From NCBI GenBank assembly GCA_020831625.1, contig JAFIGD010000036.1:1-53657 (forward strand): a stretch of 53,657 bases of DNA. The letters run 5' to 3'. A program made the position numbers and the translations under genes. Positions 10,610 through 38,107 of this stretch are shown here, piece by piece. The notes below the pieces were generated by a model. It was given only the letters and a program-made list of their open reading frames with translations, searched no databases and was not told the DNA's origin. The DNA is from Verrucomicrobiota bacterium (GTDB taxonomy: Bacteria > Verrucomicrobiota > Kiritimatiellia > SS1-B-03-39 > UBA6053). The stretch's first letter is position 1, and every line of letters starts with the position of its first letter.

Positions 10610-11014
10610 ATGTCCACACCCTACTCTATCGAACTGAAGGTCCGCGATTACGAATGTGATCTGCAGGGCATCGTCAACAATTCCGTCTACCAGAACTACC
10701 TCGAACACGCCCGGCACGAGTTCCTCAAGGCGCAGAACATCGATTTCGCCGCCCTCACCGCCAAAGGCGTTTTCCTGGTGGTGCTGCGCGCCGAACTCGA
10801 CTACAAACAGTCCCTCCGCCCCGGCGACACCTTCACCGTCAGCGTCCGCATGGAGCGCGAGGGCCGCATCCGCTGGGCCTTTGTGCAGGAAATCCGCCGT
10901 CAGCCCGACGACACCCTCATGCTCGCCGGACGCATCACCGGCGTCAGCCTCAACGAGCGCGGCCGCCCCGCGAAAATTGATGAGCTGGAACCTTTGTTTG
11001 ATCAAGCACTATGA
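10610..11014 (+). CDS. acyl-CoA thioesterase, YbgC/FadM-like hotdog fold
   Basis: A 134-residue single hotdog-domain protein. The N-terminal signature YECDLQGIVNNSVYQNYLEHARHEFL contains the Asp and the NNxxYxxYLEHAR pattern of 4HBT (FadM/YbgC) thioesterases, and a beta-rich half follows (LDYKQSLRPGDTFTV). It probably hydrolyses an acyl-CoA or acyl-ACP in the cytoplasm; the substrate cannot be read from sequence. The ATG at 10610 fits the domain boundary; longer in-frame starts run back into dcd. Its TGA overlaps the SDR start (ATGA). Confidence 0.88.
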   Translation: MSTPYSIELKVRDYECDLQGIVNNSVYQNYLEHARHEFLKAQNIDFAALTAKGVFLVVLRAELDYKQSLRPGDTFTVSVRMEREGRIRWAFVQEIRRQPDDTLMLAGRITGVSLNERGRPAKIDELEPLFDQAL

Positions 11015-13225: not shown

Positions 13226-13365
13226 AAAGGCGTCATGATGAACCTAACGTGAATTCTTTCGTAGTCATTACTTCAAAAAGACCCGACAGATGAAAATCGG
13301 AAACGTGCAAGAAGAATGCACGCTCCGCTAATCCTTGATCAGGGTCTGACCTTTGAACGCCTCCG

Positions 13366-14436: not shown

Positions 14437-15798
14437 TTATTCTCCCGGCAGGTAGGCCCCGTAGTTTCGCAGGAGGGTACGTAAATGAGCGGTGTCGACC
14501 TCGTGAACGTCCGGCCGGTTTGCGGAAGAGGCTAACGCGGCTGCAAGTCCGGCGGCTTCCCCCATGGCCAGACAGGTGGGCATAACCCGAACGCTCCCCT
14601 GTACCAGTCGTTCGGTCGATATACAGCGCCCGGCCACTAAAACATTATTTAATCCGTTCGGAGTCAAACAGCGATAGGGGATGCCGTGTGATTCGCCGGG
14701 ACCATAGTGGCGGCTTGTTTTATTCAACTTGTCCCGGGTTTCCTCGTAGGATTGATCATTATTCTCAGGTTTAGACAGTTGATGAATGTCAATAAAGTAG
14801 CAGTTGCGACATATTTCATCGTCAAAGCTTCGGCGATGCAAATAGTCGTCAAGAGTAAGGACATATTTTCCTATGACCCTGCGGGTTTCCCGAACGCCCA
14901 TTAGAGATCCGGTGAGTACAAGAAAGGCGTTTCCAAAGGCTGCGGGCACGAATTCCGCCAGTGCGTCGCGGTAGGCGCGTGCGAGTTTGCGACCAGCGGG
15001 TAGACCTTTAGAGATACTCCAAGGATCTGTGTTATCGAAGTTATATACATGCCCCGCGTTGAATCCCACGGTACCGGGGCCAATCAGATTTGAACAAAGA
15101 TGGGAATCCGGAATTAACGGATAATGCCCGGATTTTAGAATGTCGTAAATCGGGCTTTTAGGGTTGGCGGGATGCAGAGTTTCACCATGTCGGTAGGCAT
15201 ACTCGTCCACATTGGCCAAAACGAAACAATGGGTGGCGGCCATCAAGGGTCGATTGTCTCCGTCGCCCTTTACGGTTTCCGCTCCGGCCATGAAACACAG
15301 GTCCGCGTCGCCCGTGCAGTCGATGTAGACCCGGGCCCGCAGGGCGGAAAGTCCGTTCTTGTTCACCACGATGAGCGTATCCACATCTCCATCCTCACGT
15401 GTTTCCACAGCGGCCAGCGAGGTATGGAATAAAATACTGGCTCCCTCGCCCAAAACCATGTCTTCGTAAATGGTTTTTAAATCTTCGGGACTGATCGGCA
15501 CCCAGTCCATCTGTTTTTCAGGGACATGCGGGGTGGATCGTTTGGAGGCATGAAAAATACGTTCGGCAAGGCTCCTGTAGATGATCTTCTCTTTGTCTGA
15601 AAATGGACACCAGGCAGGGACGAGTGCGTTGGTGCCCATACCGCCAAGTGCTCCGGTTCCCTCCAGAAGCAAGGTGCGAGCACCTTCGCGGGCGGCCGCA
15701 GCCGCGGCGGTACTCCCGGACGGGCCGCCTCCCACCACGATCACATCCCAAGAATCGTCTAAAGGTATGCTGCGGGAAGTAAAGTTATAAGAATTCAT
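14437..15798 (-). CDS. FAD-dependent oxidoreductase (FAD_oxidored family)
   Basis: A 453-residue flavoprotein with the dinucleotide-binding motif DVIVVGGGPSGSTAAAAAAREG near residue 17 and the LGGMGTNALVPAW segment typical of the FAD_oxidored family found in polysaccharide and sugar-acid loci of Verrucomicrobiota and Planctomycetes. RVYIDCTGDADL and a C-terminal GLNNVLVAGRCIS are also present. The ATG at 15798 is chosen because the Rossmann motif follows closely; an upstream in-frame ATG would add 58 residues with no family look. No signal peptide is visible, so it is probably cytoplasmic. It is transcribed divergently from the pseudopilin gene. Substrate unknown. Confidence 0.85.
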   Translation of the reverse strand: MNSYNFTSRSIPLDDSWDVIVVGGGPSGSTAAAAAAREGARTLLLEGTGALGGMGTNALVPAWCPFSDKEKIIYRSLAERIFHASKRSTPHVPEKQMDWVPISPEDLKTIYEDMVLGEGASILFHTSLAAVETREDGDVDTLIVVNKNGLSALRARVYIDCTGDADLCFMAGAETVKGDGDNRPLMAATHCFVLANVDEYAYRHGETLHPANPKSPIYDILKSGHYPLIPDSHLCSNLIGPGTVGFNAGHVYNFDNTDPWSISKGLPAGRKLARAYRDALAEFVPAAFGNAFLVLTGSLMGVRETRRVIGKYVLTLDDYLHRRSFDDEICRNCYFIDIHQLSKPENNDQSYEETRDKLNKTSRHYGPGESHGIPYRCLTPNGLNNVLVAGRCISTERLVQGSVRVMPTCLAMGEAAGLAAALASSANRPDVHEVDTAHLRTLLRNYGAYLPGE

Positions 15799-15950
15799 GG
15801 GGGATTTTTCAAATGTTGTTTCGAAACGAAATACAAGCATGTCGGCAAAGTATGCCCTTAACACATGACGAAGAACTATCAACCGTTTAGGCAGAGAATG
15901 AACATTCTTCTTAATGAGCCACGGTTCCGGGCCCATTGCCTTGTTGAACA

Positions 15951-15966
15951 AGGATAACGTGTAAAC
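15951..15966 (+). promoter_or_regulatory. shared 16-nt motif, copy B
   Basis: AGGATAACGTGTAAAC lies 57 bases upstream of the pseudopilin ATG at 16024 and points toward it. It is also in the divergent control region of the FAD oxidoreductase, 150 bases from that start. Identical to copies A and C. Confidence 0.6.
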
Positions 15967-16023
15967 CCACACTATGTGCTTTCATATCCATACATTTTGA
16001 GTTTAAGCGTGTAGGATACTGGC

Positions 16024-20492: not shown

Positions 20493-21281
20493 ATGAAAAC
20501 CCGGAATCGTATTATATGCATAACAACCTTAATCCCATATCTTCATCTTGCCGCCGAATTGACACAGGTGATTACGTTTGACGACGGAACCCTGGCCGGA
20601 ACCTTCTCGGAAGTGCAGGGGCCAGGCGCATCGGTCATCGCAACCGACGAGGAGGCACGCGCCGGAACCCATTCCATGCGCGCCACGATGACCACGCCGG
20701 ACCGGCGCAGCGAGATCGTCAATCAATACAAACGCCCTCCCTTGGGTGAAGTAACCTGGTACGGATGGAGTGTCTTGTTCCCCGAGGGACATCCCAGGGA
20801 TGGACGCTATGATATGTTCACCCAATTTCATGATTACCACAGAACCCAACCCGAATGGAGCAAAGTCAACCGCTCTCCCACAGCCTTGTTGTTACGGGAA
20901 ACCGGGTTGTACATGACGCTCAAATTCCAAAGCGAGCCGGAAACGATTGACTTTAAAGGATTTGAACTTGGAGAGCCCCTCATTGGCGAGTGGAATGATT
21001 TCGTGATGCAGGTCAACTGGACCCACGAGCCGGACAAGGGGTTCCTGAAACTTTGGATCAATGGCGAACTGAAAATCCATTACAAGGGGCCCACCTACAT
21101 GAATTATGATGCGCCGGACTCGGGGCCGTATTTTAAAGCCGGAAACTACAAAGGCGCGGGCAACTGGCCCGGAACCTCTCCGCGAATCATCTACATTGAT
21201 GAGATCCGCATCGGCAATAAAAACGCAACCTATGAAATGGTGAACCCAGCCACATATGCGAACGAAGTGGATCAAAACTGA
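20493..21281 (+). CDS. secreted polysaccharide lyase (PF14099-like, PL13/PL20 type)
   Basis: A 262-residue exported protein with a signal peptide (about residues 1-21) and a single jelly-roll lyase fold. Family-like segments are EVTWYGWSVLFPEG, MFTQFHDYH, WNDFVMQVNWTHEPDKGFLKLWINGE and YFKAGNYKGAG. The C-terminal FLKLWINGE...YFKAG pattern is typical of the heparin-lyase I/glucuronan-lyase clan. It should cleave a uronic-acid-containing polysaccharide by beta-elimination, probably in the periplasm. Which polysaccharide cannot be read from sequence; the alginate-lyase-like neighbour makes a uronan likely. It is the first gene of a probable seven-gene operon ending at 31221. Confidence 0.75.
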   Translation: MKTRNRIICITTLIPYLHLAAELTQVITFDDGTLAGTFSEVQGPGASVIATDEEARAGTHSMRATMTTPDRRSEIVNQYKRPPLGEVTWYGWSVLFPEGHPRDGRYDMFTQFHDYHRTQPEWSKVNRSPTALLLRETGLYMTLKFQSEPETIDFKGFELGEPLIGEWNDFVMQVNWTHEPDKGFLKLWINGELKIHYKGPTYMNYDAPDSGPYFKAGNYKGAGNWPGTSPRIIYIDEIRIGNKNATYEMVNPATYANEVDQN

Positions 21282-21301: not shown

Positions 21302-23170
21302 ATGCGACTAACCCTCTTTACAAGCTCAACTCCCCGTGTCGGCGTTTTCAGCTTAATGCTGTCCGCGTGCGTGTCCCTGTTAACGGGGGCGGAACCCGCG
21401 TTTCAGCGTCCCGGCACCCTGCACACCGCGACGGATCTGGATGCCGCCCATGCCCGCGCCCGGTCCGGACGGATTCCCTGGACCGCCGCCTGGGACGCGC
21501 TTTTGGCTGAGGCGGAGGAGTTTCTTTCACAGAAACCCTCCGCGCCTGTTCAATACTCCGTTCCCGCCCGATATCAGGATGCGGAGGGACACCAGCGGGA
21601 GCGGAACAGGCTCTCCAGCCAGTCGCGGGCTGCTTATTCGCTTGCCCTCGCCTCTCAATTACTTTCCCGGTCCGAGCGTCCGGGGGATCAGGAGCGATCC
21701 GAGCGTTACGCGCGGCACGCTCTGTCTATCCTAAATGAATGGGCCGACAAAAACCGCGACATGGGGGCGGACGCCGATCCGTTTGTACGTCGTGAAACAG
21801 CCTTGGTCACGGCCACGTCCGGTGGGGGGCTGTTGATTGCCGCAGATCTGCTTTATCACCATCCCGCCTGGTCGGAAAAGGCGCGGCAGACATTTTTAAG
21901 TTGGATACGGGAATACGTTCTGCCAGCCACCGCCATTAAAACCATCAGTTATAATAACAATTGGAACGCATGGGGCAATTATCTTTCCCTGTTGTGCGCC
22001 CACCTCCTGGAGGATCCTGAAATCTTCCAGTCCGACGTGGCGCTTTGGAAGAACGATCTATTCCATCATATTGTCGAGGACGGACGGATGCCCAAGGAGC
22101 TCGCCCGTGGAGGAGGACGAAACTGGTACACCTATTATGCCCTGCTCCCCATCACCACCGCCGCCGTGGTCATTCACAACAGCACGGGTGAAAATCTCCT
22201 CGAACCCGGCACCCGCACCGGGGACCGGGTCAAAGCCGGTCTCGATTATTTTTTTGATAACCTCAAGGGGCATATTTACCGTTCTCTGATTGAAGCCTCG
22301 GGAGATCTGTACCGGGATGAGGCGTACATGGAATGGAACAAGGGGTCACGTCCTGTGCTCGGCAACCGCGCCCATACCGGCTGGGTGCACCCAACCCTGT
22401 TTACCACTTGGGAGGACATGCCGGTCAATCACCCTCCGGTGGCCAGTGTCAGCGGCCCGGAAGGTCCTGTCGCTCCGGGAACACCCGTGCGCCTGGACGC
22501 GTCCGCTTCGGAGGACCCCGATGGAGGGGAGTTGACCTTCAATTGGTTTTTGGCGGGCGAGCGGCGGGTGGATGAGTTTTATGAACCCCTCTTAAGCAGT
22601 GGAGACCTCATATACTTCCGGGAACCGCTCAACGGCCCATTTGATATATATTTCACCATCACAATGCTGGAAAACACGGACATGCTGGTGGGGTTGCAGT
22701 CCTCAAACCGCTCCGGCTTCGAATGGGGCTCTTCCTCATTTCAGGTAAACACCAACAACGGAAGGTTTCAAGTCCGGGATGGCAACCGCTACCGGGCCCT
22801 TGAGGATATTTCCTATGCGCCTGGAATTCCCTATCAGTTGCGGTGGTCGGTGGACCCCGCCGCGAAAACCTACAGCGTTCGGGTCCGGGAGATGGAGGAT
22901 GGCGACTGGGTGCATCTCGCATCGGACTTTCGTCCCCGGGACGGTAATGACGACTTTGTCGACATGGCCAAAATCATCTATTCGGGGCGGGAAGGGGCTC
23001 TCATACAAGACATCGAAGTCCACACCTTGGGAAAAAATTTTCCCGGGCCAGTCCTCAATTTCACGCCGGCGACTCCCGGTGAACATGTCGTCCAGCTCAC
23101 GGTCACCGATGAGCTGGGCGCAATAGACACCCGCAAAATTACGGTGAAGGTAGAAGATCATCTTCCCTAA
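21302..23170 (+). CDS. alginate-lyase-like protein with a PKD domain split by an inserted beta domain
   Basis: A 622-residue exported protein. The signal region covers about residues 12-30. Residues about 40-370 resemble the alpha/alpha-toroid of the alginate_lyase (PF05426) family, with SYNNNWNAWGNYLSLL and RGGGRNWYTYYALLPI; the residue expected to be catalytic His in the NNH motif reads Asn here, so activity is uncertain. A PKD-like domain begins at NHPPVASVSGPEGP and ends with PGEHVVQLTVTDELGAIDT, but about 140 residues of a separate jelly-roll-like domain (VDEFYEPLL to EVHTLG) interrupt it. GGAG stands before the ATG. It starts 20 bases after the previous lyase gene. Confidence 0.75.
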   Translation: MRLTLFTSSTPRVGVFSLMLSACVSLLTGAEPAFQRPGTLHTATDLDAAHARARSGRIPWTAAWDALLAEAEEFLSQKPSAPVQYSVPARYQDAEGHQRERNRLSSQSRAAYSLALASQLLSRSERPGDQERSERYARHALSILNEWADKNRDMGADADPFVRRETALVTATSGGGLLIAADLLYHHPAWSEKARQTFLSWIREYVLPATAIKTISYNNNWNAWGNYLSLLCAHLLEDPEIFQSDVALWKNDLFHHIVEDGRMPKELARGGGRNWYTYYALLPITTAAVVIHNSTGENLLEPGTRTGDRVKAGLDYFFDNLKGHIYRSLIEASGDLYRDEAYMEWNKGSRPVLGNRAHTGWVHPTLFTTWEDMPVNHPPVASVSGPEGPVAPGTPVRLDASASEDPDGGELTFNWFLAGERRVDEFYEPLLSSGDLIYFREPLNGPFDIYFTITMLENTDMLVGLQSSNRSGFEWGSSSFQVNTNNGRFQVRDGNRYRALEDISYAPGIPYQLRWSVDPAAKTYSVRVREMEDGDWVHLASDFRPRDGNDDFVDMAKIIYSGREGALIQDIEVHTLGKNFPGPVLNFTPATPGEHVVQLTVTDELGAIDTRKITVKVEDHLP

Positions 23171-24571: not shown

Positions 24572-25621
24572 ATGCAAAATCAGAAGCACAACATAACGAG
24601 CCCACCGGTCCTTGATATTCGGGATTTGAAAGTGCAGTTCCGCACAGAAGCGGGAAACGTCAACGCCGTGGACGGGGTTTCACTGAAAATCGGCCGGGGG
24701 CGGATTCTGGGCCTGGTGGGGGAGAGCGGCTGCGGCAAAAGCGTCACCTCCATGTCCATTCTCCGCCTCATCCGCCCTCCGGGAAAGATCATCGGCGGCA
24801 CCATTGAACTTCGGGGATCCGATGGCCAGGAGGCGGTGGAGGTGCTGGGGCTTAAAGAAAACTCCAAAGTTCTGTATGACGTGCGCGGCGGGACAGCCAG
24901 TATGATTTTTCAGGAGCCCATGACCGCGCTCAGTCCAGTGCACACGGTGGGCAATCAGGTCTGCGAAGCGATTTTAACCCATCAGGAGGTCTCCAAAGCC
25001 GAAGCCGAGGCGCTGGCGGTGGAGATGCTGACCAAGGTGGGCATTCCCAATCCCGCCGCCCGGCTGAAACAGTATCCTTTCGAATTCTCTGGAGGCATGC
25101 GCCAGCGGGTGATGATCGCCATGGCCCTGGTCTGCAACCCGAGCCTGCTGATCGCGGATGAACCCACCACCGCGCTCGATGTCACCATTCAGGCGCAAAT
25201 TCTTCAGTTGATCCGCAAAGTCCGTGATGATTCCGGGGCCGGGGTGCTGCTGATCACCCATGATTTGGGCGTCGTCGCCCAGACCGCCGACGATGTGGCG
25301 GTGATGTACATGGGTCGTATTGTGGAACAGGGCGGCGTGCGCGACGTGCTGAAAAATCCCCTACACCCTTATACGAAAGGGCTTCTGGCCTCCCTTCCGG
25401 GCCTGAACACCGATCAGCACCGCCTGAGTTCGATCAAAGGCTCGGTGCCCGCGGCGGGTCAGCTCCCATCGGGCTGTCCGTTTCATCCCCGCTGCCCTTT
25501 TCATAAACCTAGAGTTTGCGATGTGGGCGGCCCGCCGGAATTGGATTACCGCACAGAGCAACACGCCGCCGCCTGCTTCCGCTGGCGGGAAATTGCCGAG
25601 GAAGAGGAGTCCCAGGCATGA
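24572..25621 (+). CDS. Opp/Dpp-type ABC transporter ATPase (D subunit)
   Basis: A 349-residue ATP-binding subunit of the peptide/oligosaccharide uptake family. It has Walker A GESGCGKS, the Q-loop region [14 protein letters not shown], the signature FSGGMRQR, Walker [13 protein letters not shown] and the H-loop [12 protein letters not shown]. The C-terminal oligo_HPY-type cysteines are present ([15 protein letters not shown]), which in this family can hold an iron-sulfur cluster. It acts at the cytoplasmic face of the membrane together with the next gene. It overlaps that gene by four bases (ATGA). In this setting the cargo is more likely an oligosaccharide than a peptide, but that is inference. 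Confidence 0.93.
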
Positions 25622-26688
25622 ACACGCCCGAACTTGAAAAAAACGAAACCACCCCGCTGCTTTCCGTGCGGAACCTCTGCAAATTTTTTCCGATTCACAG
25701 TCAGGGTCTGATCCGGCGCAAAATCGGCGAGGTGCGGGCGGTGAATGACGTCAGTTTTGATGTTCAACCCGGTGAAACCCTCGGCATTGTCGGCGAAAGC
25801 GGCTCCGGCAAAACCACCGCCGCCCGCGCCATCCTGCGGGCGGTCACCCCCACCTCGGGTGACGTGTTTTTTCACCACCAGGGCCAAGAATTAAATTTAA
25901 CAGAACTCTCCGCCAAGGCGTTAAAGCCGCTGCGTCAGAACATGCAAATGATCTTTCAGGATCCCTTCTCCTCCCTCAATCCCCGCATGACCGTGGGGGA
26001 TATTGTGGGGGAGCCGCTGGTGATCCATCAACTGGCAAGCGGGAGCGGCCTCCGGGATCGGGTGGTGGAGGCGCTGGTGCGGGTGGGACTGAAACCCGAG
26101 CACCGTACCCGCTATCCGCACGCCTTCAGCGGCGGACAGCGTCAGCGCATCGGCATCGCCCGGGCGCTGATCATGAACCCGTCGCTGATCGTGGCGGACG
26201 AGGCGGTCTCCGCCCTGGATGTGTCGGTGCAGGCCCAGGTTATCAATCTGCTGGAGGATCTGCAGGAGGAGTTGAACCTCACCTGTCTCTTCATCGCCCA
26301 CGACCTCAGTGTGGTGAAACATATCTGCGACCGGGCGGCGGTGATGTATTGCGGACGGGTGGTGGAACTGGGGGATATCGACAACATCTATTCAAAACCG
26401 TATCACCCCTACACCCGCGCCCTGTTGGCGGCGGTGCCCTCTCCCGATCCGGATATCCGTCTGAAACCGGCGGTGGCGGGAGAGACCGCAGATCCGGCCA
26501 ATCCGCCCGCCGGATGCAGCTTTCATCCCCGCTGTCCCTTCGCAAAAAAAGGTCTCTGCGATGTTCCCGGCAAGCCCCCTCTCCTGCGGCAACTCGAACC
26601 CGATCAATGGGCAGCCTGTTTCCGGGCGGAGGAAATCGTCGATGTGGAAAGCCCGCCCGAAATGCATGAAACCGCCGAACCCGCATGA
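25618..26688 (+). CDS. Opp/Dpp-type ABC transporter ATPase (F subunit)
   Basis: A 356-residue second ATPase. It has Walker A GESGSGKTT, MIFQDPFSSLNPRM, the signature FSGGQRQR, Walker B LIVADEAVSALD (with the variant EAVSALD typical of the F subunit), and the C-terminal cysteine cluster CSFHPRCPFAKKGLC. The ATG at 25618 overlaps the previous TGA; an upstream in-frame ATG at 25516 would only extend into the D gene. It pairs with the D subunit to power the two permease subunits encoded downstream. Confidence 0.93.
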   Translation: MNTPELEKNETTPLLSVRNLCKFFPIHSQGLIRRKIGEVRAVNDVSFDVQPGETLGIVGESGSGKTTAARAILRAVTPTSGDVFFHHQGQELNLTELSAKALKPLRQNMQMIFQDPFSSLNPRMTVGDIVGEPLVIHQLASGSGLRDRVVEALVRVGLKPEHRTRYPHAFSGGQRQRIGIARALIMNPSLIVADEAVSALDVSVQAQVINLLEDLQEELNLTCLFIAHDLSVVKHICDRAAVMYCGRVVELGDIDNIYSKPYHPYTRALLAAVPSPDPDIRLKPAVAGETADPANPPAGCSFHPRCPFAKKGLCDVPGKPPLLRQLEPDQWAACFRAEEIVDVESPPEMHETAEPA

Positions 26689-26713
26689 AATGCCCGCCGC
26701 GTACGGAAAGCTT

Positions 26714-29700
26714 ATGAACGTATGTAAACTCATCGTAAAGATCCTCCTCCTGATCCTCCTGGCGGCCGCGGGCATGACCGTGATGCTGGGATTCCTGGCA
26801 TGGCTTGCCCAACCGGATTTGCACGCCCCCCTCCCCGGTTATTCACAGGCGGAGCGCGATCAGGCCAAAGCCGCCCGGGACACCTCCTTCGATCCGGAGA
26901 ATCCCCCCGTGCTCCATCTGGACGTGGATTATACCGAGGGACCGGAAGGCTCCTGGTATCCCAAAGGCGAATCCCCGCTCCTCGCCGAACTGGTGGCACA
27001 GGGCAAACTCCCGCCTCTCCCCGAGCGGATCGGACCCGAACCGGTGGTGATGTACGGAGTGGACGGCATCGGGAACTATGGCGGAAGCTGGTACCGCATT
27101 GCCAACTCCGACGGGGATGTCAGCGTCATGACCTGGCGCATCGGCGGCGCCCGGCTGGCCCGCTGGTCCCCGCTTGGCTATCCCGTCAAACCCCATTTGG
27201 CCAAAAGCTGGGAGGTCTCCGACGACCTGCGTGAATACACCGTCCGCCTCCGGCGGGGCATCCGCTGGTCGGACGGTCACCCCTTCACCGCCCGGGATAT
27301 TCTCTACTGGTGGGAGCATGAAATCCTCTTTTTCGAAGGCAACCCCGGTCAAATGCTCGTGTTGGGCCAGCGGGGCGACATTGAAAGAATCGACGACCAT
27401 ACGGTCATTTTCCGTTTCCCGCTTCCCCACGGCCAGTTTCCGGAGGTGATGGCCAAGGAGTCTTTCTGGGCCCCGGAGCACTACCTCCGCCCCTTCCATC
27501 CCGAGCAGGGTGACCCGGAGCGAATCGAACACATGATGAAGGTCCAGAACGCCCCCTCCGCCCGGACCGCCTACTTCCGCCTGAAAGACTTCCGGAATCC
27601 AGAGTTGCCGGCGATGGACCCCTGGATCATGCGCGCGCATCAGTCCTCCGCGCCCTACGCCTTCGTGCGCAATCCCTACTACCCGGTGGTGGATGCACAG
27701 GGCAATCAGCTTCCCTATATCGACAGGGTGGTCAATGATTTGCGCTCGGAGGACATGCTGGCGGTGACCGCCTCCGCGGGAGACATCACCATGCAAATGC
27801 GGCATCTGCGTTATGAGGACCACACCCTCTACATGGGCAACCGGGAAGCCGGACAGTACGATGTTTATTTCTGGTTCAGGGGGGAACGCTCCAACTTCGT
27901 GATTTTCCCCAACCTCAACCGCCGTGTCGACGGGGACAAACCCGAGACCGCCTGGAAACATAAATTCCTCAACAAAAAAGAGTTCCGGCAGGCCCTCTCC
28001 CTGGCCATAAACCGCAAGGACATCATCCGGGCGGAGTATGACAACATCGTTAAACCCGCCCAACTGGATCCGGGTGTCGAATCCCCCTTTCACCATCCCG
28101 GACTCGCCAACGCCTTCATTGAGCACGACCCGGCTCGCGCTAACGCACTGCTGGATGAAATTGGATTGACCGGACGGGACGGGGAAGGCTATCGCACCTT
28201 CCCCGACGGAACCCGGATGACCTTTTTTCTGAATCTCACCGAATTCACCGGAATCGGTCCCTCCCAATTTCTCATCGACGACTGGCGCGCGATCGGGGTG
28301 CGGGTCATCACCCAACTCCTTTCCCGCAATCTCTGGCAGACCAAGCAGTACGCACTGGAACATGACTTCTCGGTGTGGACGGGCGAAAGCGAATTTCTTC
28401 CCCTGACCGAGCCCCGGAACTTCGTGCCCACCGCCGGCCATTCGTTCTATGCTCCGGGATTCGCCTTCTGGTATCTCTTTGGCGGCCTCGACGGTTCCGA
28501 ACGGGTCAAAGACCGGCCCCAGGCGGTCGAGCCCCCGGAAGATCATCCCCTGCGCATCTCCATGCTGCTTCTCCGGGAGGCCATGGCGGTGGCCACCCTG
28601 GAGGAACAACAGCAGGCCTTCTCAAAAATTCTGGACATCGCCGCGGAAAACCTCTGGTCCATCAATATCGCCACCCCGACCCCCCAGTTGGTGGTGGTGA
28701 AACGCGGACTGAAGAATGTCCCCCGCAACGCCATCACCGGCCATATTTTCAACACCCCCGCCAATGCGGGCGTGGAAACCTATTTCTTCGAAAATCCGGC
28801 GGACTCCGAAAGCGCGAAACGTCTCATTCAGCGGCTGATGGTCGAGGTGGACCCCGATCCGCGCCGAACCCTTCAAGAGGTGTCGGCCACGCTGACGGAC
28901 ACCCGGTCCGCGGGGGATCATCTGGGAGGGATCGTTCGTTTCCTTTTCACCGGTATTCTGATTGCAGGCGCGGTGTTGATCATCGTGCGGCATCCCTTCA
29001 TTACCCGAAGGATCGTGATTCTCATTCCCACCGTGTTTGTCATGTCCGTGTGTGTGTTCACCATCATTGAACTGCCGCCCGGAGATTTTATCACGTCCCG
29101 GATTCAACAACTGGAAATGGAGGGGGACACCACCGCCATTCAACAGGCGGAAGAACTCCGGGAGTTGTTTCATCTGGAGGAATCCGCCGCCCTGCGATAC
29201 GTGCGCTGGATCGGCCTCCCCTGGTTTATCAGCTTCGACTCAGCGGATCGGGGACTCATTCAAGGGGATCTCGGCCGCAGCATGGAGGACGGCCAGCGGG
29301 TGAACGAGGTGGTGGGCGACCGCATCATGCTCACCCTGCTTATTTCCCTGTTCACCCTGATCTTCACCTGGGTGGTCGCCATTCCCATCGGGCTCTATTC
29401 CGCGGTGAAACAATACTCCATCGGAGATTATGTGTTCACCTTCTTCGGATTCATCGGCATGTGCGTGCCCCCCATGCTCCTGGCCCTGGTGATGATGTAT
29501 ATCGGCTCCTCGGTTCTGGGTTTGCCGGTCGGCGGACTGTTCTCCCCGGAATACGCCATGCAGCCGCATTGGGATAAAGCCAAACTCATTGATTTGCTTC
29601 AGCACATCTGGATTCCGGTGGTGGTCATCGGTGTCGCCGGCACCGCCGGCATGATCCGGGTGCTGCGGGCTAACATGCTCGACGAACTGGGCAAGCCCTA

Positions 29701-30028
29701 CGTCACCACCGCCCGGGCCAAAGGGGTGCGTCCCTTCAAACTGATCCTGAAATACCCCCTGCGGCTCGCCCTGAATCCCTTTATCTCCGGGATCGGCATG
29801 ATCTTCCCCCAACTGGTGTCCGGAGGCGCCATCGTCGGGATCGTGCTCAGCCTCCCCACCGTCGGCCCCCTCCTGCTCAGTGCCCTGCAGGCCCAAAACA
29901 TGTACCTGGCCGGGTCGATGCTCATGGTGCTCAGTCTGCTCACCGTCTTCGGCACCCTCGTCAGCGACCTGCTGCTGATGTGGGTGGATCCGAGAATCCG
30001 AATCGGCGGGAAAGGAGGCAAGGCGTGA
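26714..30028 (+). CDS. fused substrate-binding protein and OppB/DppB-type permease
   Basis: About 1104 residues join two usually separate transporter parts. A first membrane helix (about residues 5-28) is followed by a family 5 extracytoplasmic solute-binding domain (about 90-690: LAKSWEVSDDLREYTVRLRRGIRWSDGHPFTARDI is its hallmark). A second helix near 735-755 leads into an OppB/DppB permease with a pore segment, a VTTARAKGVRPFKLILKYPLRLALNPF coupling loop and LLSALQAQNMYLAGSMLM. The receptor is thus tethered to the channel. The start at 26714 is chosen for GGAAAG just upstream; 26690 is possible. It overlaps the next gene by four bases (GTGA). Fused forms are unusual; cargo unknown. Confidence 0.88.
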   Translation: MNVCKLIVKILLLILLAAAGMTVMLGFLAWLAQPDLHAPLPGYSQAERDQAKAARDTSFDPENPPVLHLDVDYTEGPEGSWYPKGESPLLAELVAQGKLPPLPERIGPEPVVMYGVDGIGNYGGSWYRIANSDGDVSVMTWRIGGARLARWSPLGYPVKPHLAKSWEVSDDLREYTVRLRRGIRWSDGHPFTARDILYWWEHEILFFEGNPGQMLVLGQRGDIERIDDHTVIFRFPLPHGQFPEVMAKESFWAPEHYLRPFHPEQGDPERIEHMMKVQNAPSARTAYFRLKDFRNPELPAMDPWIMRAHQSSAPYAFVRNPYYPVVDAQGNQLPYIDRVVNDLRSEDMLAVTASAGDITMQMRHLRYEDHTLYMGNREAGQYDVYFWFRGERSNFVIFPNLNRRVDGDKPETAWKHKFLNKKEFRQALSLAINRKDIIRAEYDNIVKPAQLDPGVESPFHHPGLANAFIEHDPARANALLDEIGLTGRDGEGYRTFPDGTRMTFFLNLTEFTGIGPSQFLIDDWRAIGVRVITQLLSRNLWQTKQYALEHDFSVWTGESEFLPLTEPRNFVPTAGHSFYAPGFAFWYLFGGLDGSERVKDRPQAVEPPEDHPLRISMLLLREAMAVATLEEQQQAFSKILDIAAENLWSINIATPTPQLVVVKRGLKNVPRNAITGHIFNTPANAGVETYFFENPADSESAKRLIQRLMVEVDPDPRRTLQEVSATLTDTRSAGDHLGGIVRFLFTGILIAGAVLIIVRHPFITRRIVILIPTVFVMSVCVFTIIELPPGDFITSRIQQLEMEGDTTAIQQAEELRELFHLEESAALRYVRWIGLPWFISFDSADRGLIQGDLGRSMEDGQRVNEVVGDRIMLTLLISLFTLIFTWVVAIPIGLYSAVKQYSIGDYVFTFFGFIGMCVPPMLLALVMMYIGSSVLGLPVGGLFSPEYAMQPHWDKAKLIDLLQHIWIPVVVIGVAGTAGMIRVLRANMLDELGKPYVTTARAKGVRPFKLILKYPLRLALNPFISGIGMIFPQLVSGGAIVGIVLSLPTVGPLLLSALQAQNMYLAGSMLMVLSLLTVFGTLVSDLLLMWVDPRIRIGGKGGKA

Positions 30029-31221
30029 AAAGGCTCCTCCCCCTCCTGCAACACAAATCAACCGGAGCGGATTCACGAATCCCCGCGCCGGAAACCGAGC
30101 CCGGAGGGCTGTCACAGTGGCAACTCATCCGCAAACGCTTTATCCGCCACAAACTGGCGGTGTTCGCCCTCTTTGTGCTGGTGGTGTTTTACCTGATTGC
30201 CGCCTTCGCGGAATTTATTGCCCCGCACGCCCCCCAGTGGCGTGATTTGGATTATATGTTCGCCCCGCCGCAGATTCCGAAATTCAGCCTCCGTCACGGA
30301 ATACACACCGACGCCCTTGTGCCCGCCCACGATCCCGTCACCCTGCAGAAGGACTACCGGGCCTCGGGTGAAAAAGTGCCGCTGGCCTTCTTTGTCAGGG
30401 GAGAGCCCTACCGGTTCTGGGGCCTGATTCCCATGGAACGGCGCCTCTTCGGGATCGACCATTCGCGTCTGGGCGGAGAGGGCTTTGTTCCGGCCGCGGA
30501 AGTTCATCCGGAGGGAATCGCCCCCGCCTTCTATTTTCTGGGAGCCGACAAACACGGGCGCGACCTCTTCAGCCGCCTCGTCTTCGGCGCCCGCATCTCC
30601 CTGTCCATCGGCATGCTGGCGGTGCTGGTCTCGGTGACCCTGGGGATTATCATAGGGGGCATCTCCGGGTATGTGGGCGGACTCACCGACGACCTGATCC
30701 AGCGCTTTATGGAAATTCTCCAGTCCTTCCCCCAGATCCCCCTCTGGATCGCCCTGGGGGCGCTGCTCCCCGCGGACTGGTCGCAGGTGGGGATCTATCT
30801 CGGCATCACCGTGGTGCTCAGCCTCCTCGGCTGGACCGGACTGGCCCGCGCGGTCCGCGGAAAAATCATGGCCCTGCGCGAGGAGGAATACGCGGTGGCC
30901 GCCCGCCTGCTGGGAGCCGGCCACGGCCGGATTCTGTTCAAGCATCTCGTCCCCGGCTTCACCAGTCACATCATTGTCTCCCTCAGCCTCAGTGTGCCCG
31001 GCATGATCCTCGGAGAAACCTCCCTCAGTTTCCTCGGTCTCGGCCTGCGTCCGCCGGTGGTGAGCTGGGGCGTCATGCTTCAGGACTGCATGCACATGCA
31101 GACTGTCGCCCACTACCCCTGGCTCCTGATGCCCGTCGTGTTCATCGTCACCGCCGTCCTCGCCTTCAACTACGTCGGAGACGGCCTGCGGGACGCCGCC
31201 GACCCCTATGCCTCGAAATAA
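30025..31221 (+). CDS. OppC/DppC-type ABC permease
   Basis: A 398-residue inner-membrane permease starting at GTG (30025) with GGAGGC upstream and a four-base overlap with the fused permease gene. It begins with an OppC-type N-terminal segment (QWQLIRKRFIRHKLAVFALFVLVVFYLIAAFAEFI) and has a long periplasmic loop of about 110 residues and the LGADKHGRDLFSRLVFGARISL entry into the transport domain. The coupling loop is EEYAVAARLLGAGHGRILFKHLVPG, and the family end is SFLGLGLRPPVVSWGVMLQD. It is the second channel half for the two ATPases. It converges on the LacI gene with a 35-base gap. Confidence 0.93.
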   Translation: MKRLLPLLQHKSTGADSRIPAPETEPGGLSQWQLIRKRFIRHKLAVFALFVLVVFYLIAAFAEFIAPHAPQWRDLDYMFAPPQIPKFSLRHGIHTDALVPAHDPVTLQKDYRASGEKVPLAFFVRGEPYRFWGLIPMERRLFGIDHSRLGGEGFVPAAEVHPEGIAPAFYFLGADKHGRDLFSRLVFGARISLSIGMLAVLVSVTLGIIIGGISGYVGGLTDDLIQRFMEILQSFPQIPLWIALGALLPADWSQVGIYLGITVVLSLLGWTGLARAVRGKIMALREEEYAVAARLLGAGHGRILFKHLVPGFTSHIIVSLSLSVPGMILGETSLSFLGLGLRPPVVSWGVMLQDCMHMQTVAHYPWLLMPVVFIVTAVLAFNYVGDGLRDAADPYASK

Positions 31222-31256: not shown

Positions 31257-32282
31257 TTATTTTAGATTCGGCAGGGTATTTCCCTCATCCCATTCTGCCT
31301 CAATCATGATGGTTTTAGGAAGAGTGGGAATACCCCGCTCACTTCGATGGATCTGAGCCACCACCAAATCCACAGCTGCCGCGCCGATATTTCCTGCCTG
31401 TTGGTTTACACCCGTGCCATTTTTTGGAGTGGCGCTCTCGTTATCTAAATGAACAAATGCGATATCTAAGGGTATTTGAAACCCGCTGGTCTGCAAAAGT
31501 TCGCTGCCAACGGTGTATCCAACCACCACTTCCGGCCGCCACCGCTTCAGCCATGACTTCAAGCGCGGAATCAGATTTTCGTCCTCATCCGCCCAGAAAA
31601 CAGGGATCTGGCAAGACTTGGGTTGGCGTTCCCTCCATGCAAGATAAGCGGCACTCCACGTTTCATCCACTTTGTCGTCAACCCACTTATGCAGAATCAC
31701 TCCCACGCGCTTGTATCCCCTTTCATTAACGTGCCGAAGGGCGGTGGTCATGCCATGGTACTGATGAGGGGTAACCCTGGATATTTTAGGGATGGTCACC
31801 GTATTTCCAACCGTGGCCAGAGTAAATTTTTCCCAGTCCAGCTCCGGAAAAGGGCCTGTGGCGGGCAACGGAGCGAGAATAAGCCCACCAATATTTCGGG
31901 CTTGAAGAATTTGGTTCCAGCGAGCCACCGGAATGGATGGATCCGTGATCCAAAAGGGTTCGAGCATATACCCAAGTTCCTTTGCGCGGACAAGGGCTCC
32001 CTTATACACTTTACTGCAAAATGTGACTTTCTCCCAACTGTTCTCCTTAGGCCAGGCTGTTAAAAACCCCAGCGTGGCTTGATAATGGACAGGTCGGGCG
32101 GCCCGCTTTTGGGCCATAAGGATTGAGATATAGGGGTTGAGTCGATAACCCATTTCGTTGGCGACACGTTGGACAGTCTCTTGAGTGCCCGCTGATATTT
32201 TCGGATGCTTGCGCAGAGCTAAAGACACCGTAGTGGCGCTGAAGCCGGTTTCCCGGGCGATATCTCTCAATGTGATTGACAT
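31257..32282 (-). CDS. LacI-family transcriptional regulator
   Basis: A 341-residue repressor-like protein. Its N-terminal helix-turn-helix reads TLRDIARETGFSATTVSLALRKHPKISAGTQETVQRVANEMGYRLNPY, and a periplasmic-binding-protein-like effector domain follows (ALRHVNERGYKRVGVIL, VHLDNES). The ATG at 32282 is chosen because the HTH starts a few residues later; an upstream ATG would add 20 residues of no family look. It points toward the transporter operon (convergent) and probably controls the polysaccharide genes in response to an imported sugar. The shared 16-nt motif is a candidate operator, although none lies before this gene itself. Confidence 0.9.
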   Translation of the reverse strand: MSITLRDIARETGFSATTVSLALRKHPKISAGTQETVQRVANEMGYRLNPYISILMAQKRAARPVHYQATLGFLTAWPKENSWEKVTFCSKVYKGALVRAKELGYMLEPFWITDPSIPVARWNQILQARNIGGLILAPLPATGPFPELDWEKFTLATVGNTVTIPKISRVTPHQYHGMTTALRHVNERGYKRVGVILHKWVDDKVDETWSAAYLAWRERQPKSCQIPVFWADEDENLIPRLKSWLKRWRPEVVVGYTVGSELLQTSGFQIPLDIAFVHLDNESATPKNGTGVNQQAGNIGAAAVDLVVAQIHRSERGIPTLPKTIMIEAEWDEGNTLPNLK

Positions 32283-32484
32283 ACTATAAACTTTTTGGGG
32301 TTGAAAAAAGAAAAGTAACAAACGCCATGCGTAAGTCAACAATTAGGGTTTTCATATTTCCGAACACACTCCATATTAGTAATATACCGACAAAAATCTG
32401 TGCGAAGAGTTATCCAACACAACGATGGCCTCCAAGCCGCCCCCGCAGTCCTTTTCAAATCTTCTGAAAGCGTCCAGACCGGCC

Positions 32485-32569
32485 GGTGCCCTCCTCAGCC
32501 GCCTCGCCCCCCGATGCCCTCATCGACGGTATCCTCGGCAGGGAGCTGGCAAAAAGATCAAACAAGTAA
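32485..32569 (+). pseudogene. frameshifted relic of the SDR gene 3' end
   Basis: The segment reads GALLSRLAP, one extra C, then DALIDGILGRELAKRSNK and a TAA stop. This matches the last 25 residues of the SDR at 11011-11862 (GALLSRLAP DILIDGILGRELDKRQRC) in all but a few positions, also at DNA level. Homology is not visible before 32485. It looks like the tail of a lost paralogue. Confidence 0.8.
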
Positions 32570-32664
32570 CAGCGCCAGTCCCCAGACGCGACCGATTCAA
32601 CGTAACAGCGCCTGTCCCCAGGCGCGACCGATTCAACGTAACAGCGCCTGTCCCCAGGCGCGAC
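32566..32664. repeat. 36-bp tandem repeat, about 2.7 copies
   Basis: Units at 32566-32601, 32602-32637 and 32638-32664 begin GTAACAGCGCC and contain GTCCCCAG.CGCGACC; units 2 and 3 are identical over the shared part and unit 1 differs at two positions. Each carries a GCGCCTG/CAGGCGC hairpin in copies 2 and 3. The first unit contains the TAA stop of the SDR relic. Confidence 0.85.
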
Positions 32665-32693
32665 ATGCCCTCCGCATCTGTGGACCGCAAAGC

Positions 32694-32745
32694 TTTTCCG
32701 ATGTTCGGAAAATGCAGACCAACGTTTTCCGAATCTCGGAAAAGC
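32694..32745. repeat. double-hairpin element, copy 1
   Basis: Two tandem hairpins share the same stem TTTTCCGA/TCGGAAAA with loops TGT and ATC, at 32694-32712 and 32725-32743. The same arrangement recurs at 47538-47590. It ends about 43 bases before the histidine kinase start. Confidence 0.85.
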
Positions 32746-32787
32746 GAGGGGATTGTAAATGAGTAAAAAAACAGTATATTAGCAGTG

Positions 32788-35181
32788 ATGAACCAGAACC
32801 ACAGACGATGCCAAAGCATCGTGTTCGCCCTCTTGTTATCCTGGGGGAGCGTCCTCCCGGCCGATCCCTCCCCTCTCATCGTGTCCCTCGACCACGCCTG
32901 GCCGCCGCTCTCTTTTTCCGATGACCGGGGGGAACCGCGCGGAATTCTGATCGACATCTGGCGGGAAATCGGCACCCGCCTGGACCGCCCGGTGGAATTT
33001 CGCCTGACCGACTGGAACGAAAGCATCGTCCAGGTGCGCGAGGGAAACGCGGATCTCCATGGCGGTCTCTTCCCCAATCCCGATCGCGCGGAGTTTCTGA
33101 TCTTCAGCAATGATCTGCTTCCGCTTTCGACGGTCATGTACGTTCGAACCCAAAACATGGTGCTTGAAATCAATGCGTTGGGCACCCGTCCGGTGGGGGT
33201 GGTCGCGGGGAGCCAGGAACTTCGGTTCATGAGGGAAAATCATCCCGATTTAAATTACCGGACTTTCCCGAATAACGAGACGATGATCCTTGCGGCCGTG
33301 CGGGAGGAAATCGACGCCTTTGCGGTCGACTATCCGGTTGGCCTCAACCTGCTCGACCGCCACGCCGATCCGGGCGACTTCCATGTGCTCAGCTTGTTGT
33401 ACAGCCAACACCTCCAGGCGGGATTCGCCCATGATGCGGAACGTCTCCGTGATCAAGTCAACGAAGTGCTCCGGGGCCTCGATCCGGAAGACCTTCGCCG
33501 AATCACGCAGAAATGGATTTCCACCGAGCAAATCTCCGTGCTTCCGCTCTGGTTCTACCCCGCCCTGGCCATACTCGCACTGGCCGTTCTGCTCAGCTAT
33601 CTCATTTTTCTCCATTTCCAAAAACGCCGCCTCAGGCAAACCGTGGAGGAGCGGACCCGGGAATTGCGGCTCGAAAGCCAACGGCTGGCAAACATAATCG
33701 AGGGGAGTTGGTTCGGAACCTGGGAGTGGAACGTGCAAACAGGGGAAGCCCAGTTCAACCACATCTGGGCGGAGCAAATCGGGTATAAGATTGAGGATAT
33801 CAGCCCCATGAACTTTGATTCCTGGGTCGCGCTCATCCACCCCGATGATCTCGAATCCAGCAAGCGCGAAATCGAACGAAACCTCAGGGGCGAAACCACG
33901 CTTTACAATGTCGAATTCCGGATGCGCCACCGCGAGGGTCACTGGGTTTGGATACAAAGCCGCGGACGTGTGGTGACCCGTGCCCCGGACGGAAAGCCGC
34001 TTCTCATGTACGGCACCCACATGGATATTTCCGAGCGGAAATCGATGGAACTGCAGGTACAGCGCGCCCAGCGGATGGAGGGAATCGGCACGCTGGCGGG
34101 CGGGATGGCCCATGAAATCAACAATGTTCTCGCCCCCATTTTGATATCGATTGAATTGCTCAGGGAGAATGCACCGGACGATTCACGCGCTCAAATCCTT
34201 GAAACCATTGAAAAGAGCGCGGTCCGGGGCGCCGATATTGTTCGCCAGGTTCTCTCTTACGCCCGGGGAGCCGAGGGAGAGTTTTCACCGGTTGATCCAC
34301 AAAAGCTCATTTTGGAAATCAGCCGCATTCTGAAAAAAACCCTCCCCCGGAATATTGAGTTCAACACGGACGTGCCCGCTCATATTCCTCTGATTCAGGG
34401 GGATTTCACCCAGATCCAGCAAATCCTCCTCAACCTGTGCCTCAACGCCCGGGACGCCATGCCCGACGGCGGCAGGCTCCTGATTCGAATGAGCACTGCC
34501 GAGGCATCGAACCACCACACGGGAGAACTCAAAATCGAGGTGATCGATACCGGAGTGGGGATCCCCCCCCAACTCCGGGAAAAAATCTTCGATCCTTTTT
34601 TCACCACCAAGAAACTTGGGCAGGGGACCGGCCTGGGCCTGTCGACGACCCTGTCCCTGGTTGAAAGGCACCGGGGGCGGATTGAGGTCACCAGCCAACC
34701 GGGCAAAGGCACGGTATTCACGCTTCACTTTCCCGTTCTGGCGGTGGGTTCCAGCGAATCAGCGGTCACAATACCGGAGGAGCCAAGCCCCGACGCCCGA
34801 ATTCGCGGGGGGCTGATCCTGTTGATTGACGATGAGGAAAGCATACGGAGAATTTCCCGTCTCACCCTTGAAACGCGCGGGTTCCAGGTGATCACCGCCA
34901 AAAACGGCAGGGAGGGGCTTGCCCGTTTCCAGGAACATGCGGGGGAAATCAAAGCGGTGGTCACGGATATGATGATGCCGGTTATGGACGGCGCCGAGGT
35001 CATTCAACGAATACGCGAAATCGACCGGCATGTCCCCATTATTGCGATGAGTGGACTGGTGGAAGATGAGCGTTACACGCATGAAATCAGGGGGCAGATC
35101 AGCCGGTTTCTCGCAAAGCCCTTTACCGCGAAAAAGCTCATAGAGACGCTGGATCGAATTTTACCCCCCTCCAAAGACTAA
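32788..35181 (+). CDS. hybrid sensor histidine kinase with extracytoplasmic solute-binding domain
   Basis: A 797-residue membrane kinase. After a signal peptide (about 1-25), residues about 30-250 form a SBP_bac_3-type sensor domain (SLDHAWPPLSF, REGNADLHGGLFP), followed by one membrane helix (about 252-275) and a PAS/PAC domain (about 300-425). A HisKA domain with His442 in GGMAHEINNVLAPI comes next, then an HATPase_c domain (NLCLNARDAMPDGG, DTGVGIP, GLGLS) and a receiver domain with Asp727 in VTDMMMPVMDG and a late KPFT lysine. It lacks an output domain and has no response regulator beside it, so its partner lies elsewhere. GTG at 32785 is an alternative start. Confidence 0.92.
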   Translation: MNQNHRRCQSIVFALLLSWGSVLPADPSPLIVSLDHAWPPLSFSDDRGEPRGILIDIWREIGTRLDRPVEFRLTDWNESIVQVREGNADLHGGLFPNPDRAEFLIFSNDLLPLSTVMYVRTQNMVLEINALGTRPVGVVAGSQELRFMRENHPDLNYRTFPNNETMILAAVREEIDAFAVDYPVGLNLLDRHADPGDFHVLSLLYSQHLQAGFAHDAERLRDQVNEVLRGLDPEDLRRITQKWISTEQISVLPLWFYPALAILALAVLLSYLIFLHFQKRRLRQTVEERTRELRLESQRLANIIEGSWFGTWEWNVQTGEAQFNHIWAEQIGYKIEDISPMNFDSWVALIHPDDLESSKREIERNLRGETTLYNVEFRMRHREGHWVWIQSRGRVVTRAPDGKPLLMYGTHMDISERKSMELQVQRAQRMEGIGTLAGGMAHEINNVLAPILISIELLRENAPDDSRAQILETIEKSAVRGADIVRQVLSYARGAEGEFSPVDPQKLILEISRILKKTLPRNIEFNTDVPAHIPLIQGDFTQIQQILLNLCLNARDAMPDGGRLLIRMSTAEASNHHTGELKIEVIDTGVGIPPQLREKIFDPFFTTKKLGQGTGLGLSTTLSLVERHRGRIEVTSQPGKGTVFTLHFPVLAVGSSESAVTIPEEPSPDARIRGGLILLIDDEESIRRISRLTLETRGFQVITAKNGREGLARFQEHAGEIKAVVTDMMMPVMDGAEVIQRIREIDRHVPIIAMSGLVEDERYTHEIRGQISRFLAKPFTAKKLIETLDRILPPSKD

Positions 35182-35281: not shown

Positions 35282-35486
35282 TCACAAAATTTCCAACCGC
35301 GTCACCAGCACAATCTCACACGCCCCCGCCCCGGTGTCGTCCCGGGTCGTGGATGTCCGCCAGGTTGTTCCGTTTTCATGGAGCACATTGACCAGATAGC
35401 CCCCGAGCCGCACCCGCTGTCCTTTTTCCAAACACATAATACGTCACCCCGCAAAACGCCAGCAGCAGGAGGGTTTTCAGGCTCAT
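35282..35486 (-). pseudogene. small exported protein gene with a frameshift
   Basis: The ATG at 35486 starts a hydrophobic segment (MSLKTLLLLAFCGVTYYVF), after which the frame closes. One frame over, an open stretch LEKGQRVRLGGYLVNVLHEN continues to TGA at 35282-35284. The two halves join at an A5 run near 35427, and the total of 205 bases needs a single-base shift. It looks like a signal-anchored small protein that has been broken, or a sequence error at the homopolymer. The rest of the 450-base gap (35182-35635) shows no other gene. Confidence 0.45.
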
Positions 35487-35550
35487 GGGTTGAACATAGA
35501 CAAAATCACATCCGTAGACAAGCCCTGAGCAAAAACACAATTAAATCCGG

Positions 35551-35578
35551 ATGATCCTGTGATCCCGTCAAAAAAACC
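35551..35578. repeat. dispersed ATCCTGT-type repeat, short copy
   Basis: ATCCTGTGATCCCGTCAAAAA here resembles ATCCTGTTATCCTGTCAAAA within the larger copy at 40087-40285. It lies upstream of the first antiporter gene. Confidence 0.45.
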
Positions 35579-35635
35579 AATCGGATACTTTTTGCCTTTC
35601 TTTTGCCCGGCGCGGGCTTAGTTTCATCCTTAACC

Positions 35636-38107
35636 ATGGACCCCATTTCAAATTCCATTTTAATTTTCACCATCATCTCGCTGCTGATTCTGGCGGCGCC
35701 CCTGTTGTCGCCCAAAATCAAAATCCCCGACATCGTGCTGCTGATGGCCGCCGGAGCGGCCCTGGGACCTCACGGCCTGCATCTTTTGCAGCGCAACAGC
35801 GCCATCACCCTCTTCGGTGAAGTCGGACTGGTCTACATCATGTTCCTCTCCGGTCTGGAAATTGATCTCTACGAATTTATGCGCACGCGGAAGCGCAGCA
35901 TTGGCTTCGGCCTCATCACCTTCCTGATCCCTCAGGTCCTCGGAACCCTGGGGGTGTATTATGCCCTCGATCTTTCCTGGCCCGCCTCCATCCTGGTGGC
36001 CAGTATGTTCGCGTCGCACACCCTCCTGAGCTATCCGATCGCCAGCCGTCTGGGCATACACCGCAGTGAAGCGGTGACCGTGGCCGTGGGCGCCACCATC
36101 ATCACCAACGTGCTGGCCCTGTTGGTGTTGGCGGTGGTGGTCGATTCCGCAGGCGGAACGCCCATGGATTTCCTTTTCTGGCTGCGCATTGCCGCGGGCA
36201 TGGCCATTCTGGTGATCGCAAGCTGGTGGGGCATTCCCAAACTGGCCCGCTGGTTCTTTCAAAACGTCACCGAAAGCGGCGGTTCGCAGTTCATGTTTGT
36301 GCTCGCGGTCACCTGCGCCTGCGCATATCTCTCCAACTACGCCCGCATGGAACCCATCATCGGCGCTTTTCTTGCCGGCGCCGCGTTTAACCGGCTCATC
36401 CCCGAACGCAGTCCCTTGATGAGCCGCCTGGTGTTTGCCGGCAACACCCTGTTCATCCCCTTCTTTTTGATCTCCGTGGGTATGCTGGTCGACCCCTCGG
36501 CCCTGACGGGAAGTCTGGATGTCTGGAAAGTCATCGGAGTCATGGTGGGCCTGGTCATTGCCACCAAAGGACTTGCGGCCTGGATTGGCGGCAAACTCTT
36601 TTCCTACTCACGAAACGAAACCGGTGTTGTCTTCGGCCTCAGCGTCGTGCAGGCCGCGGCGACCCTCGCAGCCGTGCTCGTGGGCCTTCGCGTCGAACTT
36701 CTCACCTCCGATATCCTCAACGGCGCCATCGGCATGATTCTGGTCACGGTCCTTGTCGGTGCCGGATTCGTTGAACGCTGTGGCCGCAAAATGGCGCTCA
36801 AACAGCTCACCCAGCCTGAAACTGAATCCAAAGAACAACGAATTCTCATCTCCGTGGCCAATCCCTTTTCCGCCGCGCGCCTCATGGAACTCGGCCTCTT
36901 TCTGCGCAGTCCCACCCACGCGGGAGCCCTCTACCCCACCACCATCGTCCGCCAACAAAACCAAACCAGCGACGCGGTCTCCAAAGGGGAGGAACTGCTG
37001 GCCAAGTGCCTCGCGCAAACCGAAACCACCGAAGAACGCATCCTTCCAAACGTCCGCGTCGACCTCAACCCGGCGGACGGCATCGCCCGCGCCGCGGAGG
37101 ATGTTCGCGCGGATGTTGTGCTCACCGGATGGGGCGGAGAACACACAGCCAATGCCCGCATTTTCGGCTCTGTGAACCGCAAGCTGTCGGAAACCTGTCC
37201 GTCCCGCCTCTTCCTCTGTCGCATTCTCACCCCGCTGAACAACGACAAACGCATCCTGCTCCCCTGCCCGCCCCTTGCGGAATACCGCAGTGACGTGGAC
37301 TTGTTGTTTTCGGATGCGAAGCGGCTGTGCAAACAACTGGGCGCGGAACTGACCGTCTATCTGCACGGCGCGGCGGCGGACAAGCTGGAGGAGGCGGTGA
37401 CCAAAGCACTCCCCAAATGTCCGCTCACGGTGCGGCGCGACGACACCTGGTCCGCCTCCCGGGTAAAGCTTTTTCAGGACATCCGCAAAGACAGCCTCGT
37501 GCTGCTCCCCCAGGAGCGGAAAAACTCCACCCTCTGGACCCCCACCCTGGACCGCATCCCCGAACTCATCGCCGCCAAATATCCGGAAGTCAATTTCCTC
37601 GTCGTCTTCCCGGCCCTCCCCCGCCTGGGGGAATCAACCGTCCTGTCGGTGCCTCCGCAGGAACAAAATGACTTCCCGGAAACGCATGCCCTCCGCTTGA
37701 CCGACAACCTCGACGCTGAGGCCGCGATTCTGCATCTCCTGCGCAGCGGCATGCCGAACGAGGAGGAATTGATCTCCAACTGCTACCAGCAGCTTCTCAC
37801 CTCCGCACGCCACCATCCCGTGGAAGTATGCAAAGGGATCCTTCTCCTGCACGCCCACGCGGGAAACCACAAGAAGCCCATCCTCCTCACCGGGGTCGGT
37901 CAGATCCAGCATCCCTTTTTCGAGCGCGAATCCCCTCCCCGCGTGCTCCTGGCGCTCATCACCCCCCTCGGATACGAGGCCAGCCAACACCTGCATACCC
38001 TCGCCACCGTCGCCGAGTGTTTCCGCAACCGCGAGGCCGCCTCCCGCCTCCAGCACGCCGACACCTCCGAGGACATCCTGCATATCCTCGCCGGCCTCCA
38101 GTCTTGA
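35636..38107 (+). CDS. CPA2-type cation/proton antiporter with C-terminal USP-like domains
   Basis: An 823-residue membrane antiporter. The first 385 residues form a Na_H_exchanger domain with about 12 helices (KIKIPDIVLLMAAGAALGPHG, GEVGLVYIMFLSGLEIDL, FASHTLLSYPIASRLG, PIIGAFLAGAAFNR). The cytoplasmic C-terminal half carries two regions resembling universal-stress-protein folds (RILISVANPFSAARLMELG, later RILLPCPPLAEYRSDVDLL and LWTPTLDRIPELIAAKYPEVNFLV). It should exchange Na+ or K+ for protons. The ATG at 35636 is preferred to an upstream TTG. A close paralogue is at 49516-52002. It converges on the SLC13 gene with a 12-base gap. Confidence 0.88.
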   Translation: MDPISNSILIFTIISLLILAAPLLSPKIKIPDIVLLMAAGAALGPHGLHLLQRNSAITLFGEVGLVYIMFLSGLEIDLYEFMRTRKRSIGFGLITFLIPQVLGTLGVYYALDLSWPASILVASMFASHTLLSYPIASRLGIHRSEAVTVAVGATIITNVLALLVLAVVVDSAGGTPMDFLFWLRIAAGMAILVIASWWGIPKLARWFFQNVTESGGSQFMFVLAVTCACAYLSNYARMEPIIGAFLAGAAFNRLIPERSPLMSRLVFAGNTLFIPFFLISVGMLVDPSALTGSLDVWKVIGVMVGLVIATKGLAAWIGGKLFSYSRNETGVVFGLSVVQAAATLAAVLVGLRVELLTSDILNGAIGMILVTVLVGAGFVERCGRKMALKQLTQPETESKEQRILISVANPFSAARLMELGLFLRSPTHAGALYPTTIVRQQNQTSDAVSKGEELLAKCLAQTETTEERILPNVRVDLNPADGIARAAEDVRADVVLTGWGGEHTANARIFGSVNRKLSETCPSRLFLCRILTPLNNDKRILLPCPPLAEYRSDVDLLFSDAKRLCKQLGAELTVYLHGAAADKLEEAVTKALPKCPLTVRRDDTWSASRVKLFQDIRKDSLVLLPQERKNSTLWTPTLDRIPELIAAKYPEVNFLVVFPALPRLGESTVLSVPPQEQNDFPETHALRLTDNLDAEAAILHLLRSGMPNEEELISNCYQQLLTSARHHPVEVCKGILLLHAHAGNHKKPILLTGVGQIQHPFFERESPPRVLLALITPLGYEASQHLHTLATVAECFRNREAASRLQHADTSEDILHILAGLQS

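Follow-up and report, generated by a model that had tools for sequence, protein, structure and literature searches.

The 3' end of an SDR gene recurs as a relic beyond a polysaccharide-use block: a scar left by an old insertion or duplication

In this study, the 3' end of an intact SDR-family oxidoreductase gene was found to recur as a broken fragment on the far side of a block of polysaccharide-use genes, and this fragment is a genuine scar, left behind by an old insertion or duplication event. The window analysed is one entire contig of 53,657 bp from the genome of an uncultured bacterium of Kiritimatiellota type (G000; 4.9 Mb in 111 contigs); its features are collected in Table 1. Comparison within this genome and with the closest relative, G002, establishes the duplication itself, its origin in a single lineage, and the absence of any such block immediately behind the SDR gene of G002. 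The order of events, the identity of the original copy and the mechanism are our reconstruction: the fragment was perhaps displaced or duplicated on arrival of the island by partly homologous recombination, an explanation preferred tentatively and given somewhat less than an even chance.

Table 1. Features of the window around the SDR gene and its relic.
Feature	Coordinates	Strand	Evidence or remark
SDR-family oxidoreductase gene, intact, 283 aa, source gene	11011..11862	+	open frame
Duplicated portion of the SDR 3' end	11777..11849	+	DNA search, local alignment
Sulfatase pseudogene, one frameshift and one premature stop	11868..13243	-	3' end 2 bp from SDR stop
FAD-dependent oxidoreductase of the island	14437..15972	-	PF12831, E 3e-100
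Polysaccharide lyase	20493..21281	+	PF14099, E 3e-31
Alginate lyase family protein with PKD domains	21302..23170	+	PF05426, E 7e-22
ABC transporter module	24614..31221	+	87% paralogue of G000:C76 29413-35994
LacI-family regulator, final gene ahead of the relic	31257..32342	-	PF00356 and PF13377
Relic of the SDR 3' end, 84% identical, C5 -> C6 frameshift	32483..32556	+	DNA search, local alignment
Remainder of the relic frame to its TAA, scant similarity to the SDR end	32557..32568	+	
Three 36-bp tandem units, starting within the relic stop codon	32566..32673	+	
Dispersed 52-nt palindrome, >15 genome copies, present also in G002	32692..32745	.	
Hybrid histidine kinase with SBP and PAS domains	32785..35181	+	
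Remnant of 215-aa gene, internally deleted; opens the next G002-shared block	35288..35487	-	
Na/H exchanger (NhaP1), common to G002	35603..38107	+	

The initial annotation had reported that the end of the SDR gene recurs with one inserted C and then a TAA, and both its coordinates and its description of the relic proved correct by search and alignment. The match extends over 73 nt (E = 6.2e-14); local alignment of 11777-11848 with 32483-32554 gave a score of 85, against a maximum of 31 in 200 shuffles. The homology spans codons ~257-279 (~24 codons), and both copies lie on the + strand with the polysaccharide genes between them. At the frameshift site, the SDR gene reads CTCG-C5-GAT and the relic CTCG-C6-GAT, after which the relic frame continues as DALIDGILGRELAKRSNK and ends in TAA at 32566-32568. 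Beyond the homology, gene and relic reach their stops over an equal length at low identity. No front part of the gene precedes the relic, as had also been claimed: SDR codons 1-255 scored 20 against 32001-32482, equal to the shuffled mean. A DNA search of the whole genome matched the SDR 3' end at two places, in the gene and at 32488-32556, and with only these two copies an origin of the relic as a dispersed repeat was ruled out. The best NCBIfam match of the SDR gene is NF004649 (SDR oxidoreductase, E = 1e-87), yet it falls below the NF004649 cut-off. Its orthologue in G002 stands at 86% on the amino acid level, and the named SDR homologues within the same family are from Kiritimatiellota.

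The duplication is old, though probably younger than the split from G002, because over the duplicated codons the relic is nearer to its own SDR gene (84% identity) than to that of G002 (77.5%). The two SDR genes are 74% identical over the same codons, and 31% of fourfold sites differ between them. Derivation of the relic from its own SDR lineage after the split is supported by these sequence comparisons. SDR codons 273-282 carry the rare codons CTT, GGG, TTA, AGG and AGA, and the relic and G002 agree on CTC GGC and CTG, unlike the SDR gene. This hints, from ~10 sites, that the relic may be the original tail and the current SDR tail the newcomer; a 13-codon low of GC3 in the SDR tail has its equal elsewhere in the gene.

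Upstream of the SDR gene lie a porphobilinogen synthase gene, a dCTP-deaminase-like gene and a thioesterase. Between the SDR gene and the relic are the broken sulfatase, a PEP-CTERM protein, the FAD oxidoreductase, the two polysaccharide lyases, a CBM96/DNRLRE protein, the ABC transporter module and the LacI regulator. The GC content falls from 0.61-0.67 within the SDR gene to 0.47-0.50 directly behind it. When the open reading frames of the block were scanned against Pfam, PHROGs and NCBIfam, no integrase, transposase, excisionase, relaxase or phage gene was detected. Judged by its sequence, the island is composite and was not acquired as a single uniform segment, because 24614-31221 is an 87% copy of a C76 locus in the same genome; this module also shows 82-83% similarity to G003:C327. 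The module (6.6 kb) is of the peptide/sugar type, and its binding-protein gene is fused to a permease (1155 aa). The breaks in the sulfatase may alternatively be assembly errors.

All genomes compared are draft assemblies, mostly probably metagenome-derived, with one genome per species, and a search of genome contigs revealed no relative closer than these family members. In G002, the window genes at 5692-11862 are kept in order on contig C249. Neither an island gene nor a sulfatase occurs in the 370 bp between the G002 SDR gene and the contig end, a stretch that carries a dispersed repeat near the end. The island alginate lyase had no match in G002 or G003, and neither it nor the transporter was matched in G002 at the thresholds used; G002 is ~90% complete, so the absence of island genes there is uncertain. 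These findings in G002 agree with a lineage-specific insertion. Two other G002 contigs, C463 and C292, are collinear with the window at 35288-38107 and at 49.5-53.6 kb, break at neighbouring NhaP1 codons, and together hold the 215-aa gene, an FAD oxidoreductase, NhaP1, NhaP2 and the gene at 52-53.6 kb. Because of this collinearity, the G002 order is probably SDR, 215-aa gene, NhaP1, NhaP2. The start of C463 and the end of C249 carry the same repeat type (~95% over 117 bp), and we infer from these sequences that the two contigs probably adjoin and that the SDR site of G002 probably lacks a polysaccharide block.

The DNA from ~11863 to ~35287 was not found at the corresponding place in G002. Because the next shared block starts at the remnant at 35288-35487, the missing stretch extends to ~35287, and the relic sits inside it, 2.7 kb short of that block. 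The SDR gene and the relic flank the polysaccharide genes in the same orientation, as the initial annotation had stated, but the right-hand limit of the lineage-specific DNA does not coincide exactly with the relic. The kinase may have resulted from an event of its own. The DNA directly behind the relic was not found in G002, and nothing 3' of the relic was found to adjoin the SDR gene in any relative. The G001 contig breaks inside the SDR gene, in a low-quality C-rich stretch, and is therefore silent on the joint; in G003, different sequence stands behind the SDR gene, and it does not match any window gene. A set of 54 homologous SDR genes showed no second SDR 3' end within ~10 kb (one 17-nt chance match).

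The relic is followed by the three tandem units, the dispersed palindrome and the hybrid histidine kinase, which has no close orthologue within the genus. The palindromic element (TTTTCCGA..TCGGAAAA) occurs at 32692-32745 and again at 47539-47590, and strong folding was seen for 32556-32760 (z -6.9). The remnant next to the kinase retains the start and end of its gene, with ~150 middle codons gone; the intact form is in G002:C463. NhaP1 and NhaP2, which adjoin in G002 and G001, are separated in the window by ~11 kb (38108-49480) holding a transporter, a type IIG restriction-methylase gene (40711-44169) and tandem repeats. At 118.46-118.77 kb of C76, only the 5' flank and the 3' end remain of a copy of the type IIG gene, with the same palindrome alongside. 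A dispersed repeat of ~150 bp lies at 40079-40227, with copies on seven other contigs. Direct repeats at 40088-40163 and 49353-49428 (83%) were considered as a second border duplication and rejected as members of this kind of dispersed family, found on seven other contigs.

Partly homologous recombination would have placed a lineage-specific block of ~20.6 kb (lyases, sulfatase, ABC transporter, LacI regulator) directly behind the SDR gene. The incoming DNA would have borne an SDR-like 3' end beside polysaccharide genes; this end would have recombined with the final 25 codons of the chromosomal SDR gene, while the opposite end of the incoming DNA would have joined just ahead of the old 3' end. 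The SDR gene would have stayed whole with a new tail, and the old tail, shifted to the far side, would have decayed. The occurrence of two copies only, the retention of 5692-11862 in G002 with no block behind its SDR gene, the drop in GC and the rare codons in the SDR tail all favour this account. Against it, the codon and polarity signal comes from few sites and the GC3 low has a counterpart in another part of the gene; the distance from the relic to the shared block calls for an extra insertion or loss to explain the kinase; the DNA behind the relic is beside no relative's SDR gene; and the transporter module is paralogous within the genome. It is nevertheless preferred because there is no integrase, no clear core and no reuse of the target, and because the block is composite.

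A tyrosine-integrase island seems unlikely. Such an island would have used the SDR 3' end as attB and restored the gene with its own tail copy, and its integrase would later have been lost. The layout is indeed that of a restored target and a displaced fragment in the same orientation, and the most identical stretch (22/23 nt) is at the relic start, the place expected for a crossover core. However, identity over the later part is 39/48, a difference with a Fisher p of 0.15, and a long identical att-like core is absent from the alignment. As att-type ends the repeats give a mixed picture: a 73-nt direct repeat and an intact SDR gene are present, but the repeat is 84% identical, frameshifted and without a clear core. 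The scans for mobility genes, the composite content of the block, and the lack of a nearby second 3' end at all 54 homologous loci also speak against an integrase, although reuse of a target is usual rather than obligatory. The suggestion of the initial annotation that an insertion duplicated the 3' end of its target is therefore upheld as far as the relic stems from the SDR lineage and G002 has no island beside its SDR gene, whereas an integrase as the maker of the border repeat finds no backing.

We regard as similarly unlikely that a full second SDR gene, produced by tandem duplication, was once present and was trimmed, the polysaccharide block replacing its front. The genome does keep truncated remnants, for example the 215-aa gene that has lost its middle, and C76 retains only both ends of the type IIG gene copy; but SDR codons 1-255 leave no trace before the relic, and no second SDR gene of this subfamily was found in G000 or G002, the next best in G000 being 39% identical. 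Slightly less probable still is a fragment copied independently of the island, for example in break repair, and adjacent to it by coincidence: short dispersed repeats and gene fragments are numerous in this genome, but most such repeats are multi-copy, whereas the SDR tail occurs exactly twice, flanking the block in the same orientation.

If recombination on arrival of the block is the true explanation, the relic dates and marks the acquisition of polysaccharide-use genes in a little-studied lineage, and the SDR locus becomes a site for comparing empty and filled states. The relic alters no general idea and belongs to a fairly ordinary genome history. It is very improbable that it exemplifies a class of integrase-free polysaccharide cassettes in this Kiritimatiellota family that carry the tail of their landing gene and leave the old tail as a scar.

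Islands integrated at tRNA and tmRNA genes offer a close parallel: according to the Islander report (PMC4383910), the island restores the split target and a displaced fragment marks the other endpoint. The SDR locus has a similar layout, with an intact gene and a fragment in the same orientation on the other side of the block; unlike in the islands described there, the target is a protein gene, no integrase is present, the repeat is only 84% identical, and the lineage-specific DNA extends outward past the fragment. In SGI1 (PMC8409611), an island occupies the 3' end of the protein gene trmE. As at the SDR locus, the event concerns the 3' end of a protein-coding gene, which remains whole, but the present block differs from that account in having no mobility genes, no reuse of the SDR gene and a cargo of polysaccharide genes only. 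Literature searches returned the known island type and no similar case in Kiritimatiellota. During DNA uptake, homology-facilitated illegitimate recombination can insert DNA through one homologous and one non-homologous join and leave the anchor gene partly duplicated. By analogy, the SDR gene and its relic may represent the same outcome, an insertion accompanied by a partial duplication of the anchor.
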